Shown here piece after piece: positions 42,393-54,118 of a stretch of DNA of 64,000 bases. The notes under the pieces are model-generated. The model saw only the letters and a program-made list of their open reading frames with translations, had not been told where the DNA came from and searched no databases. Source of the DNA: Paludisphaera rhizosphaerae (GTDB taxonomy: Bacteria; Planctomycetota; Planctomycetia; Isosphaerales; Isosphaeraceae); contig NZ_JAALCR010000023.1 of the NCBI RefSeq assembly GCF_011065895.1, positions 1 through 64,000 of the forward strand. The letters are read 5' to 3'. The translations under genes and the position numbers were made by a program. How positions within the stretch are numbered: position 1 is the stretch's first letter; each line of letters begins with the position of its first letter.

Positions 42393-43093
42393 AATCAACT
42401 CTCTTAACAACAACGCGGCGCGGGTGCGGGATCGGCTCGACCCCCTCGCCCCGCGTGTCTTGCAAGCGCCGATCGACCCTTCTCCGCGCCACGACCGATG
42501 AAGGTCCGACCCCCCCGCCTCATCCGCCCCTTCCGGATTTTGACATCCCCGTTCGGTGCGGCAGACTCTCGTATGAGTCGCCATTCCAACAGTGGCGCCG
42601 GCCCCGATCCGTCTGAATCCACCCCTCCGATTCCACATCCCGCCGAAGAATTTCAGATTGGGGCTTGACGAAGGGAATCCTTACAGCCATCATTGACTGC
42701 GTGCATGGAGCCAATCATTATATCGTGCTGTGCCGCATCTGCATTCTCGGTGCCGTTCGGCGCGAGGGCGGGTGGGCCGGCGAGGGATCGAGGGCGCGGC
42801 TGAGGTCCCAAGCGGGCCGGGCCGGGCTTTGAAACAAACGGAGTTCGTCCTGCTGCGATGCGGGGCGGCTCCTGCGGAATGAGTCGACGTCGAGTGCGGG
42901 AGCGGGCGGCCTCGCGAGGGGCGGACGCGACGCGCTTCGCGGCCGGCGGGGGTGAAGGGCGTCGCGCCTTGCGCCGGGCCCGTGCGTGCGAATGAATCAC
43001 CTTGATGAGAGGGGAGGACGGGTCAGGGTCGTCGCAACGGAACGCGGCGGAAACCCGAGACCAGTCCTCAACGCAAACCGGGGGAGTCTGTCG
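42393..43093. other. Long intergenic leader of giant surface-protein gene
   Basis: 701 bases without a supportable gene on either strand; reading frames here are by-products of high GC. It contains a promoter-like site (listed separately) in an AT-rich patch near 42690-42725. No RNA structure or riboswitch was recognised. Confidence 0.5.
42693..42721 (+). promoter_or_regulatory. Sigma-70-like promoter candidate before giant surface-protein gene
   Basis: TTGACT, 17-base spacer, CATTAT. It is the best match to -35/-10 consensus in the 700 bases before the giant gene and lies in an AT-rich island. It would give a leader of about 365 bases before the ATG at 43094. Prediction from sequence only. 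Confidence 0.35.
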
Positions 43094-46000
43094 ATGGGGA
43101 GCTTCAACGCGGGTGGAAATGACCAGGGGCCCGATCGGCGTCGCGTCAAGAGGCAGGTGAAGCGGCAGGGCTCCCCCCGGCTCGAATGGCTGGAGGGGCG
43201 CGTCCTGCTGGCGACCAACGCCCTCCAGGGCGGCAACCCGGTCTGGACGGCGACGTCGACGAACATCGCCGACGTCTCGCACGGGCCGATGGCGCAGCTG
43301 GGCGGCCAGTTGATCGGGCTGTACCTGAAGCAGCAGTCGGGGATCAACAACACGCAGACGCTGCAGGATGCGTATCCCGCCCTGCAGATCAGCAACGGCT
43401 CGGTGCTCGTCGGCCTGACGACGTGGGGGAACCTCAACTCGTTCCGCACGACGTTGACCAACCTCGGAATGAAGGTCACCGCGTCGAGCACGACCTACGG
43501 CATGGTCAACGGCTGGGTGCCGATCAACCAGCTCTACTCGATCGCCCAGCTCCCCGGGCTGGTCAGCGGCCGACCGATCTACACGCCGCACACCTCGGCC
43601 TATCAGGGCGCGGCCCACAACCAGGCGTTGGAAGGACTTCAGGCCGACGTCGCCGCGACCAAGTACAACGTCACGGGCTCCGGCGTGACGGTCGGCGTCC
43701 TCAGCGACAGCTTCAACGCGCTGGGCGGATACGCCGCCGACGTGACCTCGGGCGACCTGCCGGCCAACGTCACCATTCTGCAGGACTACAGCGGCGGTGC
43801 GGACGAAGGCCGCGCCATGTCGCAGAACATCTATGACATCGCGCCGGGCGCCGGACTCCAGTTCGCGACCGCCTTCATCGACGATCTGAGCTTCGCCAAC
43901 AACATCAAGGCATTGGCGGCGGCCGGGTCGGACATCATCGTCGACGACATCGGCTACGCCAACGAGCCGTTCTTCCAGGACGGCATCATCTCCCAGGCGG
44001 TCAACACCGTCGTCGGCCAGGGGGTCCCGTACTTCTCCGCGGCTGGCAACTCGCAGGACAGCGGCTACCTGTCGACGTTCCGGGGCGTCACCACGACGAT
44101 CACCGGCGTCAACAACGGGAACGCCGGCCGCTACATGAATTTCAACGGCGGCAGCGGCAACGTCGTCACGCAGCTGCCGATGACCACGACAGTGGCCGGC
44201 GCCTCGTTCATCTTCCAGTTCGACCAGCCGTTCGCCACCCAGCAGCCGGTGGGGACGGGCAACACGGTCACCTCGAACGTTCAGGTGTTCATCCTGGACG
44301 CCAACGGCACCGTGGTGGCCAGCGGCAACAACGACACGACGGCCACCCAAGAGCCCTACCAGTTCGTCACGATCCCGAACGCCGGCACCTACACGGTGGT
44401 CATCCAGGTCGTCAGCGGCGCCGACCCGGGCCACGTGCAAATGGTGGAGTGGGGTTCGGGCGTCACCTTCTCGCAGTCGTTCGGCTCGGCCGGCGGGACG
44501 TACTATCCGACCTCGTTCGGCCACTCCACGGCGGTGAACACGATCGGCGTCGGTGCGACCCCCTGGTGGGCGCCTTCGCCCTTCCTGAACCAGCAGCCGC
44601 TCGCCAGCGAGCCGTTCAGCTCGTTCGGGCCTTCGATCTACGTTCGCGACAGCAACGGCAAGCTGCTGAGCAAGGCTGTGATTCCGCAGAACCCGTTGGT
44701 CACCGCCCCGGACGGCGGCAACACGACGTTCTTCGGTTCCGTCATCCAGACCAACAACCCGCCGTTCCCGGGCCAGCCGGCGACGACGACGAACCTCTCG
44801 CAGAACCTGCCGAGCTTCTTCGGCACGTCGTCGGCCGCGCCCAACGCGGCGGCGGTCGCGGCACTGATGATGTCTCGCGTCTCCGGCCTGACGGTCGCCC
44901 AGGTCAAGGCCGGTCTGGTCGCCTCGGCCTCCGGGATGAACGGGGCAGGGACCGGCAACTGGAACGCTCAGGCCGGCTACGGTCTGATCAACGCCGTTTC
45001 GGCGATCTCGGCGGTCGACGTGCTGACGGTCTCCAGCACCACGCCGGCGAACGTCGTCGCGACCACCGTTCCCAGCTACATCGACGTGACGTTCAGCAAG
45101 TCGGTGCAGGCCTCCACGCTGAGCGCGGGTGACCTCAAGTTCGTCGGCCTGCCGGCGGGGGTCACGGTCACGGTGGGGACGCCGATCCCCGTCGATGATC
45201 CGAAGAACCCGACCGTCGTCCGGTTCCCCATCACCATCTCCCGCAACCCCGCGGTGGCGGCGACGGCCAACGGAACCTACCAGTACGTCGTCACGGGCAA
45301 CGTGATTTCCACGGACGGCTCCAAGCTCCAGCAGAGCGGCGTGATTGCGTTCCGGCTGCAGGACACGACGGCCCCGCAGATCGCCTCGACCTCGACGCTC
45401 GGCCGTCAGGTCTCGGTCACGTTCACCAAGCCGATGGACGCGACCACGATCACCAAGAACACGATCCTCGTCGCCCGTCAGAACGGGACCGGGACGTGGT
45501 CGGTGGTCCCCTCGCAGGATCCCCGCGTCACGCTGACGTACAACGCCTCCACCAAGACGGCGACGCTCGACTTCTCGGCGATGCCGCAGACGTCGCTCCC
45601 GTCCGACCGCTACGCGATCATCGTCATCAGCGGGGCCAACGGCGTCCTCGACGTGGTCGGCAACCAGCTCGACGGCAACTTCTCGGGCGCCTTCCCATCC
45701 GGCGACGGCGTGGCCGGCGGCAACTTCCTTCAGGACCTGGGGACTCTCCTCGTCCAGGCTCCGGTCATCACCTCGTTCAGCCTCTCCTCGTCGTCGACGA
45801 ACGACACGGGGATCCCGAGCGATTCCAACACGCGGCAGACGAAGCCGACGTTCATCGGCCAGGTCTACGCCAGCTTCCCGAACACGGTCTCGAATCTCAA
45901 CTACTACGTTCAGTTCAACTCGCTGACCGGCGGAACCTTCAACCTGACCGTCGGCTCCGGGGGCCGGGGCTTCTCCGGCGGCTACAACGTCACCGGGACC

Positions 46001-49000
46001 ACCGACGCCAACGGCGCCTTCACCTTCACGGCGCCGACCGCGCTGCCCGAAGGCTTCCAGCGGGCTCGCGTCCTGGTCGTCGGCCAGTCCGACACTCCGC
46101 CGCTGCCGGGATACGGCGCGACGCTCGATCGCGCCTTCCGTATCGACCTGACCTCGCCCACCATCACGGGCGTCGCTCAGCAAGACCAGTCGGCCTTCCC
46201 GGCCGGGACCAACGTGTCCACGCTCCCGGGGCTGTCGCTCTACGTTCAGGACGCCTCGATGCAGGCCGCCAGCTACCTGGCGACGCCGAGCAACGTGGTC
46301 TTCCCGGCGCTCGATCCCTCGACGGCCGTCAATCTGAGCAACTTCCAGCTCCAGGTCGTAACCGCCGACGGCACGACCCTGGACGTCTCCAACTACATCA
46401 CCAACGCCGTCTACGTCCCGCGGACGCCCACCTACGATGCGTCGGGCAACTACATCGCGACCTATCAGGGCCGCATCGACCTGACCTTCGCGCCGGGGCT
46501 CCCCGCCGGCACCTATCGGCTCCGGGCCTTCAGCAAGGGGACGACCGACGGCGTCTCTCACACCGGGCTGCTTGACGCGGCCGGCAACGCCCTGCTGAAC
46601 GGCGGCTCCAGCGCTCCCAACTTCTCGTTCGCCTTCCGGCTCCAGAGCAGCGCCGCGTTCATCACCAACATGGTGATGACCGACTCGGCCAATCAGTTCA
46701 CCTACAACACGGTCGGCGGGCCCGGCTCCTACTACGATCTGGGGGCCGCGACCAGCACGACCGACGCCCGAGCCCTGGCCCCGCCCAAGGCCTGGATGTT
46801 CGACTTCTCCAACGCGCTGCCGCTCTACGATTCGTCCGGCAACAAGATCGACTACTCGACCAAGATCGAGCTGGTCCGCTCGGCCGACTCGGCCTTCTCG
46901 GCCCCGGACGGCAACTTCGGCGATCTCGGTCAGGACGGCAAGGGAGACAGCGGCACCGGTTTCACCAAGGTCACCGGCACTCAGGTCGCGCTCTACTGGC
47001 AGAACCCCACGACCGGCGTCTGGACCCTGGCCAACGCCAGCCATCCCCAGGGCACTCGCCTGGTGATGGTCGACTCCGCCGGCCTGAGCGTCGCCGACTA
47101 CTACCGCGTCTACATGCCCAACCAGGTCGACTCGGCCGGCACCGACACGCGGTTCTACGACGTCTACGGCAACCAGGTCGACGGTGAATTCCTGGGGAAC
47201 CCCACCAGCACCATTAGCACGCAGTTCCGGGGCTACTCGTCGGATCCCAGCCTGATCTACCCGGGCGATCGCAACGTCTACAACTACGAGACCCTGCTCA
47301 CGTCGGGCTACGCCTCGCCCGCTCCTGTCAGCCGGATGACCGGCGACGGCGTGGCCGGCGGCGCCTTCATGACGGGCTTCGTGGTCGCGGCCACCGATCA
47401 CATCCTCTACACCCGGCCCGATTACCGCGAGGATCCGTTCGACTCGTCCACCGAGCCCGACGGCAGCCTGGCCCGGCCGTACTCGGCGCTCGCCGCCGAG
47501 GGCGACCCGACGAGCTCGCCGCAGAACCCGACCCACGATCCCAACGGCGGCCTCAACGACGGGTCCAACTTCCTCTCGGGATTCAATCCCAACTACGACC
47601 GCAACGGCAACAGCCGGTTCGATCGCTCGGCCCTTTATGCGGCCTCGCAGCTCGCCTATTCCGGTCCTGTCGTGATCGTCGCGGTCCCGGGGACCCCGCA
47701 GCGGAATCCAACCACCGGCGTCGTGACCCAGGAGCCCTTCGTCCTCCAGGCGCCGTCCGGGTCGAATACGTGGAACGACGCCAGCGCGTCGATCCCCTTC
47801 GACACGACCCTGGTTTTCACGCCGGGGACGACGTTGAAGTCGCTGAACGCCTCACTGTTCGTGCAGAACCAGGGGGCGGCTCTCCAGGTTCAGGGGAACT
47901 CGGTCAACCGCGTGAACTTCACGTCGTACAACGACGCGTCGGTCGGCGGGGCCACCAACGGCAACCCCAACACGACTCCTCGGGCCGGCGACTGGGGCGG
48001 CATCGTCTATCGCAGCTACAACCAGTCGGCCGGGACCAGGTCGACCGACGTCAGCTTCCCGGTCGACGGCGTCCTGCTCGGAGCCCCCGCAACCTCGACC
48101 GGCGCGGCTCAGCCGGCGATCGCCGGGGCCGACGAGCTGATGTCGCGGATCAACTTCGCCAACATCCTGTACGGCGGCGGCGCCGTTCCGCGAACCTCCG
48201 GCACCACTTACAGCGCCGTGACGCTGTACAACAGCCGGCCGTCGGTGATGAACACGAACATCGCCTTCACCGGCGGTTCGGGAAGCACCCAGGCCGCCAT
48301 CGGCGCCGACCTGGACTCGTTCCTTGACGACGACGTCGCTCGGGGCCCGCTGATCCGCCGCGCGACGGTCGCGAGCAACAGCCTCAACGGCATCTGGATG
48401 ATGGCCCAGGGGAACGGCTTCATCGAGGCGACCGACGCGACTCGGCTGTCCGACACCAACTTCAGCGCGACGCCGGCGCACTACGCCCTCTTCCAGCCGC
48501 TGCCGTTGATCGTGCTGGCTCAGCTGATCGTCGGTCAGCAGTACGAGGTGAACTCCGGCGGCAGCACGAAGTTCGTCAACAACCGGCTCTACGTCGACTC
48601 CGGCTCGATGCTCCGCATGGGCGAGAACACCTCGCTGAGCGTCATCAACTCCCAGGCCAGCCTGAACGTCGGCTCGCGTGACTACATCACCAAGTTCGAC
48701 GCCGACAACGACTATAGCCCTGAGAGCAGCAATTTCAAGGCGGAGAGCGCCAGCGATCCCCAGGTGCTGTTCACCTCGATCTACGACAACAACGCCACGA
48801 CCTCCCTCGTCACCACCCCGATCAACGTCACCGGGAACACCACCCCGGTGACGCTTAAGCCTGCGATGTGGGGCGGCGTCGGCATCCAGAGCGGCGCCCA
48901 GGCAGTTATCAACGCGGCGACGTTCCAGTACGGCGGTGGTTCGATCAACACGGCCGACGTCACCATGCCGACCCAGTCGGTCCTGGCGTTCATCACCAAC

Positions 49001-52000
49001 CAGACCTTCTTCGACGTCTTCGCCGGTTTCGGCGATCTCGGTACCCGGGTCTACGTTACCAACAATAACTTCTACAACAACTTCGACGCGGCGATGCAGA
49101 TCGAGCCCGACGGCCTCCTGGCCGGCGATACGCTCCGTCCGCTCCAGTCCGGCCACCCGTTCCTCCGCGGCAACGTCATGAAGGGGAACGGCATCGACGG
49201 CCTGGCGGTTCTGGCCGCTCGAGGCTATCTCCAGAACGCCAGCTCGAATTACGCGGTGATCGGGCCGAAGGAAGCGAACCTGCAACCCTTCTCGTCGGGC
49301 AACCAGACTGTCGACGCCCTCTGGGATTTGACCGACATCACCTACGTCCTCCGCGGGACGATCGTCCTCGACGGCCGCCAGCGGCCGCAGCCTGACACCA
49401 CGTTCACCACGCCTCCGGGCCCGAACGTCTCGCTCACGATCCAAGCCGCCCTTCCCGGCACGCTGTTGGCCGACGGCACCACCGTCCCCAGCCCTGGCGC
49501 CTCGGTGGTGGTCAAACTGCTCAGCGAGAACAACACCCAGGGGGCCGGGACGATCGACGTGAACGGTTCGACGGGAGCGCCCGCCTCTTTGCAGGCCGGT
49601 GCGGGCTTCATCGCCGGCGTCGACGATGCGACCGATCCCAATTCCAGCCCACTCGTCGACCCGGGCGTTTGGAGCCAGATCCGGATCCTCGGCGTCCCCG
49701 GCAACCAGAGCACCGGTCAGCAGCGCGTGCCCGTCATTATCACGTCGTTGCGTGACACAACGGTCGGTACGACGGCCCGCGGCGTGGTCAACAACCAGAT
49801 CCTCAACAGCTATCCCGTCGGCCCGACGACGAAGTTCGCCGGCCAGAGCCTCTCGGTCCCGCAGCCCGGCGACGGCGGCTACATCTACATCGGGGCGAAC
49901 TCCGAGACGAGCTACGACCTCAACGACCCTCGTCAGGGAAGCCTGATCGACAACGCCGACATCCGCTACATGACGCGGATCGAGATCCAGGGCGGCGGCA
50001 TCATCGACGGCGTCCCGACCAACCCCGCCCCGAGCGTGGGTCAGTACTGGCAAATGAAGTCGGGCTACTTTTTCAATCAGCTGACAGGCACCTACGATCC
50101 CGTCTACCAGTTAAACGCCAGGATGGCCGTGCGGATCTCCGACTCCCACCTCGATTCGTTCCAGGACGCTGGCGTCTACGTTCACCCGATCCCGGCTAAC
50201 GCGATCGTGAACGGCGTCCGCGGCAGCTTCCGCGGCCAGGGCGTGACGCTGTACATGTACAACAACACGGTCTCCAACACGCCGATCGGCGTGGCGGTCT
50301 ACTCGGAGACGGGAGACAACACGACCGGCCAGTCGCCGATGATGCTGGTGTTGGTGAACAACACCTTCTACAACAACTCGCTCTTCGGCGTGCATACCGT
50401 CGCCCCGGCCTACAACGGCCAAAACTCGAACTCACACGTCTACTCGCTGTTGATGAACAACATCTTCAGTAACATCAGCGGAACGGGCGTGCAGTTCGAC
50501 GGTATGCAGTGGAACAGCCAACTTCAGTACAACCTGTTCTACAACAACGGCGCGAACGTCGTCTCGAACAGCGCCAGCGGCGGCTTCGCCGGCAACATCG
50601 GGGCGAAGTACGGCAATCCCTTGTTCGTCGACGCCGCCAACCGGAACTTCGCGCTCCAGGCCGGGTCCGCGGCGATCGATTCGGGTCGCAGCGAAATCGG
50701 CCAGAACGCGGCCGGCAACGCCATCTACCCGACGGTGACGCAGACCACCACCGGCCTGATTTACGGGCCCCGAACCAATCCCGGCTTGCTGACCGGGGCG
50801 CAGCAGGCGGGTGCCTCGGGCATCACCGGCGGCAACTCGTTCATCACCGACCCGCGGCAGATCGTCACGCTCCCCGGTTCGGGCCTGTTCAGCTTCAACG
50901 ACCTGTGGGTGCCGTCGCTGACTCTCCCCGCCGGCGCCGACCCCGGCCCGTCTTACGCGAGCGGCGGGTTCTTCTACGTGCCGGTCTCGAAGGCGTCGTT
51001 GGGCCGTCGCGACCTCGCGGGCTACATCCGTAACGACGATCCGGGCGTCACCAACACCGGCACGGGCGCCAACCCGTTCACCGACATCGGCGCCTATGAG
51101 TACATCAACCTGAACGCCCCGACGGTCACGGCCGTCACGGCGATCTACGCCGGCGCCGGCGGCGTCTACACGACGAAGAACTTCTACTCGGTCGGCGGCG
51201 TCTCCGGCTCGAACCAGACGCCCGCCTACGTCCAGTTCAACTTCAACAGCCCGATCGACCTGACGAGCGTCAACGCCAACTCGGTGAAGCTCCAGGCCCT
51301 GGGCGTGACCGGCAACAACGTCGCCGGCTCGTTCATCAGCCTCGCCGGTCTGATCACCGCGGGGAACGCCTCCAACGGCTACTACATCCGCGTCTCGCTG
51401 GGGGCGGCTGGCATCTCGCTGAAGAGCGACGCCTACCGGTTCGTCCTCTTCGGCGACGGGTCGAGCATCGTCACCAACACCGAGGGCGTCGCCCTCGACG
51501 GTGAGAACCTCACCAACAACAACAACCCCGCGACGGGCGTGCAGAAGGCCCTCCCCTCGGGCAACGGCCAGCCGGGCGGGAACTTCTACACCAACTTCAT
51601 CATCAACACGGTCGCCTCGTCGATCGTGTCGGGGAGCTTCGGCCTCTCGTCGGCGACGGACAGCAACGTGGTCGGCGACTCGGTCACGAACTTCACCAAG
51701 CCGTCGTTCGTCGGCCAGATCGCCAACGCGAACACGGCTCTGGTGCCCCTCAACGGCCAGACGGTCATCCTGGACGTCGGCGTCGTCGCTCTCGACGGCA
51801 ACGGCAACACGACGACCTACTGGGATCCGACCTCGGCTCCGTCGAACCTCGCCGGGTTCATCCGGCAGAACGCCGGCTCCGCGCTGACCAACGCCACCGG
51901 GGCCTTCACGGTCACGGTCGGGACGAACGGGGCGTCGATCCCCTACTTCCCGTCGACCGCGGGCCTGCTCTCCTCGCCGTACAACGTCGGTTCGAGCGGC

Positions 52001-54118
52001 AATCTGATCCCGATCCCGGGGACCGTCGGCGGCTACTACGTCGCCCGCGTCCGGGTGGTGGATCAGAGCGGCAACGTCTCGAACAACACGCTCCCCGCCG
52101 CGAAGACCAACTTCGTGGTGGACGACGCGACCCCGAGCAACGGCGGGACGCCGCTGAACGTCGCGATCACCAACCCGACCAACGGTGCGGTGGTCTCCAG
52201 CCCCTCGTCGAGCTACACGTTCGAGTTCTACACGAGCAAGAACCTCGACCTGACCCACCTGACGACCTCGCAGATCCAGCTCGTTCGGGCTGGGGCCAAC
52301 GGGTCGTTCACCGGCGGGACGACCATCACCATCGATCCGACGAGCATCTCGGTCACCTATCTCGACTCCGCGGCCGCGGGCGGCGGCGGTGGCAAGGGGA
52401 GCGAGAAGATCACGTTCCGGGCTTCCACGAGCCTGAGCAACGGCCTCTACCAGCTGACGCTTCTGGGAACCGGCTCCAACGGGATCCGCGACATCGCCGG
52501 AAACCTGCCGGCGAACGGAGACGTCGTCTCGACCTTCGCGGTCTACAGCCCGTCGACCGCCCACCTGGTCTACGTCGGAGCCGCTTACGCGACCGACACG
52601 ACGGCCACTCTGGGATCGCGGGCCAATCCCTACGACACCATCTCCGCAGCGGTGACCGCCGCGGCCTTCGGCGACCGCGTCGCCGTTCTGCCGGGCGTCT
52701 ACGCTGAGACGGTGACGATGCGGAACCAGATCAGCGTCGTCTCCGCCGGCGTCGCCAGCACGGATTCGTCTCTGATCGCGGGCAACCCGCTCACGACCAT
52801 CATCCGGCCGGCCGCCGCCGCCAACTCGACCAGCGTGATCGCCTCCGGGCTCACGGCCTTCGTCGACCCGACCACGGGCGTCGCTCTCCAGACGGAGCTC
52901 GGCGGGTTCTCGATCGCTTCCTCGCTGCTCGGCGACCCGGCCCTCGGGTCGCAGAACAGCAGCTCGGTGGGCCTGCTGGTCACCGACTCCTCGCTGCTCG
53001 TCGACCGGAACTACTTCATCAACTCCGGAGTCGGCGTCGTGGTGAACACGACGACGTCGACCAACACGCCGACGATCGTCAACAACGGCATCATCGGCAA
53101 CGTCACCGGTCTGTATCTGAAGGACTCCGGCACCACCGCCTCCACGAACGTCATCAACAACACGTTCGCCTACAACACCTACGGCCTGTGGGCGGTGAAC
53201 TCCACCGCCACCGGCACCAACCAGGGGTATGTGGCCAACAACATCTTCTGGCAGAACCACGATCAGACCGTCAACCGCGGCGGCTACGGCGTCTACTCGG
53301 CCACGCCCAACCACCTCGTCCTCAACAACAACCTGTTCTCGGGCAACGGCAAGAGCGACTCGCTGGCCTGGTGGGCGGGCGTCAACGTCGGCAACGGCTT
53401 CGACGTCGCCAAGCTCGGCCCGAACGCGAGCGACGCTCAGGCCAACCTCGGGAACTTCACTGGCTGGCCGGCGTTTGTCTCGCCGATCGACCCCCGCCCC
53501 GGTTCGGACGGCCCGGCGCAGTTCTACTTGACGGCCAACTTCGGCCTCCAGTCGACCTCGGCGGCGATCAACAACGCCCTGGCCTCGATCGCGACGACGA
53601 CCGACTTCCTGGGCAACCCCCAGAACGTCAACCCGACCAGCCGCGGCTTCAAGCTCCCCGGCTACGGACCTCGCGACGTCGGCGCCTTCGAGTTCGTCCC
53701 CAGCGGGTCTTCCTCGACCAGCACCACGACGACCACGACGACCACGTCGAGCTCCAAGTCGTCCCAGACGGCCATGGACAAGGTCGCCGCCGCCGACGCG
53801 ACCACGGTCGTCGATCCGGCCGCGACCGCGACCTCGACGACGGTCGCCGCAACCACCACCACGTCGAACGTCGTCACCACGACTCCGACCGTCACGGTTT
53901 CGACCACGTCCACGCCCGCACCGGCCGCCTCGCCGACGAGCGTGACCGTTGACAAGAAGACGGCCGCTCGCAATGCGGCCGCCGCCCGCGCCGCAGCGGC
54001 CGCCGCCGCCCGCGCCGCTCGCCTGGCGGCCCTGGCCGCCCGGAACGCCGCCAAGACCTCGACCGTCACCACGACGGCCGCCGTCAAGCGGACGCCTCCG
54101 CGGTTCGCCTCCCGCTGA
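43094..54118 (+). CDS. Giant surface protein: subtilase-like domain, Ig-like domains, beta-helices
   Basis: 3674 residues. The N-terminus has SPRLEWLEGRVLLATNALQG, an LEPRxLL-like motif typical of large planctomycete surface proteins. Residues about 183-635 form an S8/S53-like protease domain: GSGVTVGVLSDSFNALGG, DEGRAM, IAPGAGLQF, FSAAGNSQDS and FFGTSSAAPNAAAVAALMM. Several Ig-like/SD-repeat domains follow (VTFSKSVQASTLSAGDLKF, VTFTKPMDATTITKNTILVA). Beta-helix regions end with NPFTDIGAYEY (near 2680) and GPRDVGAFEF. A second helix begins GSRANPYDTISAAVTAAAFG. A Thr/Ser-rich stretch and an Ala/Lys/Arg tail close it. Start at 43094 with GGGGGAGT seven bases upstream. Probably a secreted adhesin or wall protein. 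Confidence 0.9.
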   Translation: MGSFNAGGNDQGPDRRRVKRQVKRQGSPRLEWLEGRVLLATNALQGGNPVWTATSTNIADVSHGPMAQLGGQLIGLYLKQQSGINNTQTLQDAYPALQISNGSVLVGLTTWGNLNSFRTTLTNLGMKVTASSTTYGMVNGWVPINQLYSIAQLPGLVSGRPIYTPHTSAYQGAAHNQALEGLQADVAATKYNVTGSGVTVGVLSDSFNALGGYAADVTSGDLPANVTILQDYSGGADEGRAMSQNIYDIAPGAGLQFATAFIDDLSFANNIKALAAAGSDIIVDDIGYANEPFFQDGIISQAVNTVVGQGVPYFSAAGNSQDSGYLSTFRGVTTTITGVNNGNAGRYMNFNGGSGNVVTQLPMTTTVAGASFIFQFDQPFATQQPVGTGNTVTSNVQVFILDANGTVVASGNNDTTATQEPYQFVTIPNAGTYTVVIQVVSGADPGHVQMVEWGSGVTFSQSFGSAGGTYYPTSFGHSTAVNTIGVGATPWWAPSPFLNQQPLASEPFSSFGPSIYVRDSNGKLLSKAVIPQNPLVTAPDGGNTTFFGSVIQTNNPPFPGQPATTTNLSQNLPSFFGTSSAAPNAAAVAALMMSRVSGLTVAQVKAGLVASASGMNGAGTGNWNAQAGYGLINAVSAISAVDVLTVSSTTPANVVATTVPSYIDVTFSKSVQASTLSAGDLKFVGLPAGVTVTVGTPIPVDDPKNPTVVRFPITISRNPAVAATANGTYQYVVTGNVISTDGSKLQQSGVIAFRLQDTTAPQIASTSTLGRQVSVTFTKPMDATTITKNTILVARQNGTGTWSVVPSQDPRVTLTYNASTKTATLDFSAMPQTSLPSDRYAIIVISGANGVLDVVGNQLDGNFSGAFPSGDGVAGGNFLQDLGTLLVQAPVITSFSLSSSSTNDTGIPSDSNTRQTKPTFIGQVYASFPNTVSNLNYYVQFNSLTGGTFNLTVGSGGRGFSGGYNVTGTTDANGAFTFTAPTALPEGFQRARVLVVGQSDTPPLPGYGATLDRAFRIDLTSPTITGVAQQDQSAFPAGTNVSTLPGLSLYVQDASMQAASYLATPSNVVFPALDPSTAVNLSNFQLQVVTADGTTLDVSNYITNAVYVPRTPTYDASGNYIATYQGRIDLTFAPGLPAGTYRLRAFSKGTTDGVSHTGLLDAAGNALLNGGSSAPNFSFAFRLQSSAAFITNMVMTDSANQFTYNTVGGPGSYYDLGAATSTTDARALAPPKAWMFDFSNALPLYDSSGNKIDYSTKIELVRSADSAFSAPDGNFGDLGQDGKGDSGTGFTKVTGTQVALYWQNPTTGVWTLANASHPQGTRLVMVDSAGLSVADYYRVYMPNQVDSAGTDTRFYDVYGNQVDGEFLGNPTSTISTQFRGYSSDPSLIYPGDRNVYNYETLLTSGYASPAPVSRMTGDGVAGGAFMTGFVVAATDHILYTRPDYREDPFDSSTEPDGSLARPYSALAAEGDPTSSPQNPTHDPNGGLNDGSNFLSGFNPNYDRNGNSRFDRSALYAASQLAYSGPVVIVAVPGTPQRNPTTGVVTQEPFVLQAPSGSNTWNDASASIPFDTTLVFTPGTTLKSLNASLFVQNQGAALQVQGNSVNRVNFTSYNDASVGGATNGNPNTTPRAGDWGGIVYRSYNQSAGTRSTDVSFPVDGVLLGAPATSTGAAQPAIAGADELMSRINFANILYGGGAVPRTSGTTYSAVTLYNSRPSVMNTNIAFTGGSGSTQAAIGADLDSFLDDDVARGPLIRRATVASNSLNGIWMMAQGNGFIEATDATRLSDTNFSATPAHYALFQPLPLIVLAQLIVGQQYEVNSGGSTKFVNNRLYVDSGSMLRMGENTSLSVINSQASLNVGSRDYITKFDADNDYSPESSNFKAESASDPQVLFTSIYDNNATTSLVTTPINVTGNTTPVTLKPAMWGGVGIQSGAQAVINAATFQYGGGSINTADVTMPTQSVLAFITNQTFFDVFAGFGDLGTRVYVTNNNFYNNFDAAMQIEPDGLLAGDTLRPLQSGHPFLRGNVMKGNGIDGLAVLAARGYLQNASSNYAVIGPKEANLQPFSSGNQTVDALWDLTDITYVLRGTIVLDGRQRPQPDTTFTTPPGPNVSLTIQAALPGTLLADGTTVPSPGASVVVKLLSENNTQGAGTIDVNGSTGAPASLQAGAGFIAGVDDATDPNSSPLVDPGVWSQIRILGVPGNQSTGQQRVPVIITSLRDTTVGTTARGVVNNQILNSYPVGPTTKFAGQSLSVPQPGDGGYIYIGANSETSYDLNDPRQGSLIDNADIRYMTRIEIQGGGIIDGVPTNPAPSVGQYWQMKSGYFFNQLTGTYDPVYQLNARMAVRISDSHLDSFQDAGVYVHPIPANAIVNGVRGSFRGQGVTLYMYNNTVSNTPIGVAVYSETGDNTTGQSPMMLVLVNNTFYNNSLFGVHTVAPAYNGQNSNSHVYSLLMNNIFSNISGTGVQFDGMQWNSQLQYNLFYNNGANVVSNSASGGFAGNIGAKYGNPLFVDAANRNFALQAGSAAIDSGRSEIGQNAAGNAIYPTVTQTTTGLIYGPRTNPGLLTGAQQAGASGITGGNSFITDPRQIVTLPGSGLFSFNDLWVPSLTLPAGADPGPSYASGGFFYVPVSKASLGRRDLAGYIRNDDPGVTNTGTGANPFTDIGAYEYINLNAPTVTAVTAIYAGAGGVYTTKNFYSVGGVSGSNQTPAYVQFNFNSPIDLTSVNANSVKLQALGVTGNNVAGSFISLAGLITAGNASNGYYIRVSLGAAGISLKSDAYRFVLFGDGSSIVTNTEGVALDGENLTNNNNPATGVQKALPSGNGQPGGNFYTNFIINTVASSIVSGSFGLSSATDSNVVGDSVTNFTKPSFVGQIANANTALVPLNGQTVILDVGVVALDGNGNTTTYWDPTSAPSNLAGFIRQNAGSALTNATGAFTVTVGTNGASIPYFPSTAGLLSSPYNVGSSGNLIPIPGTVGGYYVARVRVVDQSGNVSNNTLPAAKTNFVVDDATPSNGGTPLNVAITNPTNGAVVSSPSSSYTFEFYTSKNLDLTHLTTSQIQLVRAGANGSFTGGTTITIDPTSISVTYLDSAAAGGGGGKGSEKITFRASTSLSNGLYQLTLLGTGSNGIRDIAGNLPANGDVVSTFAVYSPSTAHLVYVGAAYATDTTATLGSRANPYDTISAAVTAAAFGDRVAVLPGVYAETVTMRNQISVVSAGVASTDSSLIAGNPLTTIIRPAAAANSTSVIASGLTAFVDPTTGVALQTELGGFSIASSLLGDPALGSQNSSSVGLLVTDSSLLVDRNYFINSGVGVVVNTTTSTNTPTIVNNGIIGNVTGLYLKDSGTTASTNVINNTFAYNTYGLWAVNSTATGTNQGYVANNIFWQNHDQTVNRGGYGVYSATPNHLVLNNNLFSGNGKSDSLAWWAGVNVGNGFDVAKLGPNASDAQANLGNFTGWPAFVSPIDPRPGSDGPAQFYLTANFGLQSTSAAINNALASIATTTDFLGNPQNVNPTSRGFKLPGYGPRDVGAFEFVPSGSSSTSTTTTTTTTSSSKSSQTAMDKVAAADATTVVDPAATATSTTVAATTTTSNVVTTTPTVTVSTTSTPAPAASPTSVTVDKKTAARNAAAARAAAAAAARAARLAALAARNAAKTSTVTTTAAVKRTPPRFASR

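Follow-up and report, generated by a model that had tools for sequence, protein, structure and literature searches.

A candidate Ser-Glu-Asp protease family of the subtilisin fold, represented at the head of a giant protein of Paludisphaera rhizosphaerae

The window analyzed here, a stretch of 64,000 nucleotides of Paludisphaera rhizosphaerae DNA, carries the gene for a giant putative surface protein, P0001 (43094..54118, plus strand). The question raised by this locus is whether the subtilase-like domain near the start of the protein, where the HGTHVAG motif usual in subtilases is replaced by DEGRAMSQN, can act as a protease. Replacement of a catalytic histidine by glutamate is rare, and the sedolisins are its well-studied case in the subtilisin fold. 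The first-pass annotation had placed a Glu at the His position, with the Asp, Asn and Ser of the active site retained, and had left two outcomes, an active Ser-Glu-Asp enzyme or a structural module.

The P0001 gene is one open frame of 3674 aa that starts with ATG at 43094 and has no internal stop; a GTG at 42986 offers an alternative open start. Cys is absent from the protein, and His and Glu make up 0.5% and 1.0% of it. It begins with a basic N-terminus bearing the stretch LEWLEGRVLLA, which we take to resemble the planctomycete LEPR-XLL signal and which no profile model matched, followed by a propeptide-like domain and the protease domain. Further on come a Big_5 bacterial Ig-like region (best stretch 45368..45685; PF13205, E 4.8e-07, above cut-off), weak matches below the Pfam cut-offs to a right-handed beta-helix (48866..49210; PF13229, E 0.00037) and a Big_13 Ig-like domain (51638..51814; PF19077, E 4.7e-05), and a choice-of-anchor Q domain (53531..53695; NF041518, E 2.2e-07), all on the plus strand; the protein ends in a stretch rich in Ser and Thr, followed by a basic, Ala-rich tail. 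In the own genome (8.05 Mb), both the protease part and a 2767-aa piece of the non-protease remainder found the P0001 gene only. The homolog in Paludisphaera soli (L132 / G430) sits in a 3766-aa open frame, thus the giant form is common to this near relative; many other family members are encoded by frames of ~600-900 aa. A 1627-aa open frame on the minus strand (42653-47536) lies opposite the beginning of the gene and most likely just mirrors its coding sequence. About 5 kb upstream of P0001, a frame at 36497-38371 matches a SpoIVB-type S55 peptidase (PF05580, E 2.6e-11).

Scans of the whole protein with Pfam and NCBIfam returned nothing over the protease part. When the protease domain was searched alone, PF00082 matched above its cut-off along profile positions 148-288 of 288 (the second half only), and a mycosin match fell below the cut-off. 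The fold was predicted with AlphaFold from an alignment of 74 sequences (the P0001 domain and 73 relatives), and the resulting model, which contains the propeptide-like domain and the protease domain (the latter P0001 173-647; 43610..45034, plus strand), has a mean pLDDT of 90.0 and a pTM of 0.89. The 50 VIA-align matches listed for it have Z-scores from 33.0 to 31.1, mostly with rmsd 2.0-2.5 over ~250 residues, and include subtilisin BPN' (Z ~32) and 7am3 (Z 32.8, rmsd 2.2, 254 aligned), with no S53 entry recognised among them. By model confidence and by these Z-scores, the domain is predicted to have the subtilisin fold that defines the S8 subtilases. The top Foldseek rows were CspC and CspA of C. 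difficile, followed by pro-Tk-SP, fervidolysin and pro-subtilisins, and a profile search of solved structures returned S8 entries, which matched best over the second profile half (best 60 of 182). No Glu-bearing relative was recognised among the solved structures in the matches listed, which for the profile search are the best 60 of 182.

In front of the protease lies a propeptide-like domain (P0001 103-161; 43400..43576, plus strand) with the predicted order beta-alpha-beta-beta-alpha-beta. Unprocessed pro-subtilisin E (3whi) could be aligned from model residue 63 onward over 318 residues (Z 31.1, rmsd 3.5), suggesting that this front domain is most simply a subtilisin-type propeptide. It is connected to the protease by a linker (P0001 166-172; 43589..43609, plus strand) of low model confidence (pLDDT <50 at model residues 127-133), which is likely the processing region.

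The active-site residues were compared in 125 distinct relatives. This set was derived from 165 frames that matched either model at E 1e-15, from which 14 were removed as shorter than 330 aa or scoring below 90 bits (the canonical S8 rows L017-L025, together with L029, L076_0, L076_1, L152 and L158); the remaining 151 frames gave 126 distinct sequences, and one near-substring was also removed. The base position holds Glu in 111 of these relatives and His in the other 14 (L144, L146, L147, L149 and L157, and the Planctomycetota loci L159-L164, L173, L174 and L176). In an earlier, unsorted set of 113 rows the same column had Glu in 101, a gap in 9, and Ala, Tyr and Asp in one each, the non-Glu rows coming from canonical S8 genes, from incomplete frames or, in L041, from a second protease. 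In P0001 the residue is Glu238 (43805..43807, plus strand), which opens helix 199-210 of the model as its Glu199. We assign it to the place of His64 of subtilisin because it is aligned with the His of the His-bearing relatives and because the spacing from the base to AP is preserved, at 12 residues in 109 of the 111 Glu forms and in 11 of the 14 His forms. The replacement of His by Glu noticed at first pass is thereby confirmed, and so are the two other residues that had been read as conserved, the oxyanion Asn of AAGNS (Asn319; 44048..44050) at the Asn155 place and the nucleophile Ser of GTSSAAP (Ser579; 44828..44830) at the Ser221 place, both on the plus strand and each found in 125/125 rows.

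The Asp of LSDSF, which had been taken for the usual acid, turned out to be displaced. Place 32 was assigned by a gapless count from the preceding Gly, and it is occupied in P0001 by Ser204 (43703..43705, plus strand), with the Asp one residue later at the residue-33 place (Asp205; 43706..43708, plus strand). At place 32 all 111 Glu forms have Ser; 12 of the 14 His forms have Asp, and the other two are gapped there in the alignment, in which L157 is also poorly aligned at this place. The His form L144 is one residue shorter after its Asp, which MAFFT put opposite Asp205; counted from the Gly, it belongs to place 32. Place 33 is Asp in 107, Asn in 3 and Thr in 1 of the 111 Glu forms. The first protease strand of the model ends at Ser165 (model number). 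A local bulge may still bring Asp205 to the position of Asp32 in space.

A second pair of acids, Asp284-Asp285 (43943..43948, plus strand), occupies places 124-125, so that Asp285 stands for Ser125. In the predicted secondary structure Asp284 closes strand 242-245 (model numbers) and Asp285 comes next. The first Asp is present in 111/111 and the second in 110/111 Glu forms (Asn in L140), vs Ser in 12, Thr in 1 and Pro in 1 of the His forms. Between the oxyanion Asn and the nucleophile Ser lies a long, beta-rich insert (approximately 44108..44485, plus strand, from AlphaFold and alignment distances). The His forms have the same sequence layout with this long segment, the median Asn-to-Ser distance being 242 aa in the Glu forms vs 197 aa in the His forms. 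In the 74 aligned sequences the Glu, both Asp, the oxyanion Asn and the nucleophile Ser with its GTS context are each constant (74/74). One further position was seen to switch together with the active site, namely place 168, occupied in P0001 by His477 (model 438; 44522..44524, plus strand), with His in 105/111 Glu forms vs Pro in 12/14 His forms. No constant His column was found across the 111 Glu forms, this one being the maximum.

The scan of named genomes used the Ser motif as its pattern, thus Glu was not selected for directly, but of the at least 516 stretches that it confirmed, the 80 nearest to the query were kept. These best 80 of at least 516 loci come from Planctomycetota, Cyanobacteria, Bacteroidetes, Chloroflexi, Alpha- and Gammaproteobacteria, Latescibacterota and others, and the closest domain relative among the loci listed is that of Paludisphaera soli (72% identity). 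In Planctomycetota, 25 of 392 genomes match at E 1e-5, the own genome included, 16 of them with a Glu form and 9 via canonical S8 genes. The phylum of the cyanobacterium G421 has 6 matching genomes of 194, counting G421, and that of the gammaproteobacterium G425 has 3 of 299, two with Glu forms (one of them G425) and one with the L144 His form. Among mobile elements, IMG/VR contained one contig with a Glu form (L111; 29% identity, Asn at place 33), the phage collection gave none, and the plasmid collection returned three records for the query L040. The Mitsuaria plasmid protein WP_067283605.1 is a Glu form (DEGRAM, LSDSY, VDD) annotated as 'S8 family serine peptidase'. As judged by sequence, the Glu-for-His change and the changes coupled to it define one widespread bacterial family.

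Since places 32 and 125 switch along with the base residue, the active site has changed as a set around a conserved nucleophile Ser and oxyanion Asn. The phylogenetic tree was built from 68 rows, including 44 of the 111 Glu rows (20 hand-picked for spread and 24 random), 13 of the 14 His rows (all but L157), 11 canonical S8 rows and no S53 rows, and six columns (places 32, 33, the base and 123-125) were removed. The Glu rows fall on one side of a branch with support 100/97 even with the swapped columns removed, the His rows stand beside the Glu clade (92/81, not starred) and the canonical S8 rows are outside (100/99); the branches of two S8 rows are very long, and the composition of several rows is odd. 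With this topology, one change of the base residue suffices. Random decay of one protease was rejected as an explanation because Glu is fixed over the whole clade. We give about an even chance to a course in which an ancestral His-type lineage with the long Asn155-Ser221 insert replaced Asp32 by Ser, His64 by Glu, Ser125 by Asp and Pro168 by His and changed residue 33 to Asp. On this course, a functional Ser-Glu-Asp enzyme would have arisen by a route unlike that of the sedolisins and would add a third kind of active site to the subtilisin fold.

The residue at the His64 place invites comparison with the sedolisins (kumamolisin), which likewise have Glu there, and in P0001 a general-base role for this Glu, together with a carboxylate partner, would complete the likeness. 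According to the passages of Denesyuk et al. (2024; PMC11593635) that concern them, serine-carboxyl peptidases use Glu as the base and an acid four residues later in the same helix. The P0001 family has Met at this Glu+4 position and Asn instead of the oxyanion Asp (74/74 each), its putative acid lies on another structural element, and no Pro-kuma_activ match was found in the P0001 protease domain. True S53 identity is therefore rejected and we consider it hardly credible, since the residues at Glu+4 and at the oxyanion place, both defining, contradict it. The spacing from Glu to AP is also 12 in the S53 rows inspected by eye, and a single profile-profile comparison with 7 S53 rows gave a probability of 95.9 (E 2.7e-9), but it set the S53 Glu two residues off Glu238; the S8 profile scored higher (99.7, E 2e-25), although aligned in its second half only, and the nearest relatives in the tree, which has no S53 rows, carry His. 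The register of Glu against His64 is settled, at the level of alignment, by the His-type relatives and not by the profile-profile runs. The first-pass annotation had suggested a structural comparison with S8 and S53; the predicted fold is that of subtilisin, so far as AlphaFold and VIA-align can tell. By the Met at Glu+4 and the oxyanion Asn, the likeness to sedolisins is purely functional. The own genome also encodes L121 (C12:122162-122464), with a Pro-kuma_activ domain and GTSAGAP, which is probably a true S53-type protease.

With a probability of about 0.5, we propose that the P0001 domain works as a serine protease of the subtilisin fold that processes itself, with Glu238 as the base and Asp285 as its most likely partner. 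Glu238 would take the role of His64 as the general base for Ser579, and Asn319 would provide the oxyanion hole. Glu238 itself would be held and tuned by a carboxylate of the neighboring strand, most likely that of Asp285; Asp205, at the S2 side, would be a second acid. The result would be sedolisin-like Ser-Glu-Asp chemistry on an S8 scaffold, probably at its best at acid pH. The protein would be synthesized as a zymogen with a subtilisin-type propeptide and would cleave itself near P0001 166-172, and the protease would stay at the head of the large surface protein, where it may trim P0001 or neighboring extracellular proteins. Of the two outcomes left by the first-pass annotation, the active one is thus favored by the constancy of Ser, Glu, Asn and the two strand Asp, and the Glu-type family is probably a working protease, as the conserved Ser579, Asn319 and GTSxAxP context suggest; the acid assigned at that time does not hold the Asp32 place. 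The family lacks the acid of S8 as well as that of S53 at the usual place, and the near-invariant Asp pair 124-125 adjoins the base, so that on the simplest reading Asp285 took over as the partner of Glu238, in line with the coupling of Glu in 111 rows to Asp125 in 110. In the subtilase structures surveyed by Denesyuk et al. (PMC11593635), residue 125 is Ser in the 33 structures of the Asn group and the 14 of the Ser/Thr group; two exceptions belong to neither group. The carbonyl of this residue is described as contacting the catalytic base.

The evidence also bears on other readings of the site. The protease may be active in the same way with Asp205 as the triad acid, brought toward Glu238 by a local bulge, and Asp285 only shaping the pocket. 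This is a rather unlikely arrangement, even with Asp at place 33 in nearly all Glu forms and with residue 33 located, in the relevant part of a study of a modelled subtilisin homolog, at subsite S2, where Asp32 and His64 hold the P2 residue (PMC4181652). Asp205 is off by one from Asp32 in the gapless count; it gives way to Asn or Thr in 4 of 111 sequences that keep Glu and Ser, a variation that also counts against our proposal. Asp285 is the better candidate and the more constant of the two (110/111).

A pseudoprotease, whose fold has been retained for a structural or binding role and whose Glu and Asp serve for metal or ligand, is rather unlikely too. In its favor, the top Foldseek rows, CspC and CspA, are termed pseudoproteases in published abstracts; the domain stands at the head of a giant surface protein, and its acid cluster could bind metal. 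Loss of activity normally frees the nucleophile and oxyanion residues to vary. In the P0001 family these residues and the GTS context are invariant over several phyla, which argues against this reading. The absence of a Glu-Glu register in the S53 profile comparison is another point against the active Ser-Glu-Asp proposal. Finally, His477 could act as the base, its His being switched together with the active site, yet this is very unlikely: Gln (5) or Arg (1) replaces it in 6 of the 111 Glu forms, all of which keep Glu and Ser, and place 168 is a wall residue of the S1 pocket in subtilisins, away from Ser221. Some role of this His is still conceivable, since it is conserved in most Glu forms.

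With the S8 subtilases (subtilisin BPN', pro-subtilisin E; PF00082) the domain shares the predicted fold, the propeptide-like domain, GTSxAxP and the oxyanion Asn; it differs from them in that Glu replaces His64 and Ser replaces Asp32, in its Asp residues at places 33 and 125, and in the long insert between Asn155 and Ser221. In 2007 Siezen, Renckens and Boekhorst reportedly homology-modelled a sedolisin-like subset of subtilases with the catalytic Asp on a beta-strand and not on the Glu helix. By this description, the subset would resemble the P0001 family in its Glu base and strand Asp, a part that Asp284-Asp285 may play, and the survey probably flagged this Glu-type subset in silico. The CDD model Peptidases_S53_like (cd05562) presumably covers proteins of the same kind. 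Because of these two precedents, we regard P0001 as a member of a known but little-studied kind. A literature search outside the subscription journals found no paper naming Peptidases_S53_like or cd05562, and the literature searched yielded no structure or assay of any Glu form; in a narrow search of the same scope we found no mention of the coupled swap, the one-residue Asp shift or the His-type relatives. The E-H-S subtilases, such as SprP of Pseudomonas, are likewise a subset with an altered triad, in which, according to the part of the source that describes them, Asp and not His is replaced by Glu (PMC3937732).

Because His-type relatives of the same layout still exist and the partner changes form a near-fixed set, the replacement of the catalytic base could be replayed residue by residue, and the transition from Ser-His-Asp to Ser-Glu-Asp would thus be directly testable by swaps between the two clades. 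The family also illustrates that the label 'S8 family serine peptidase', as given to the plasmid-encoded relative WP_067283605.1, can hide a different chemistry.
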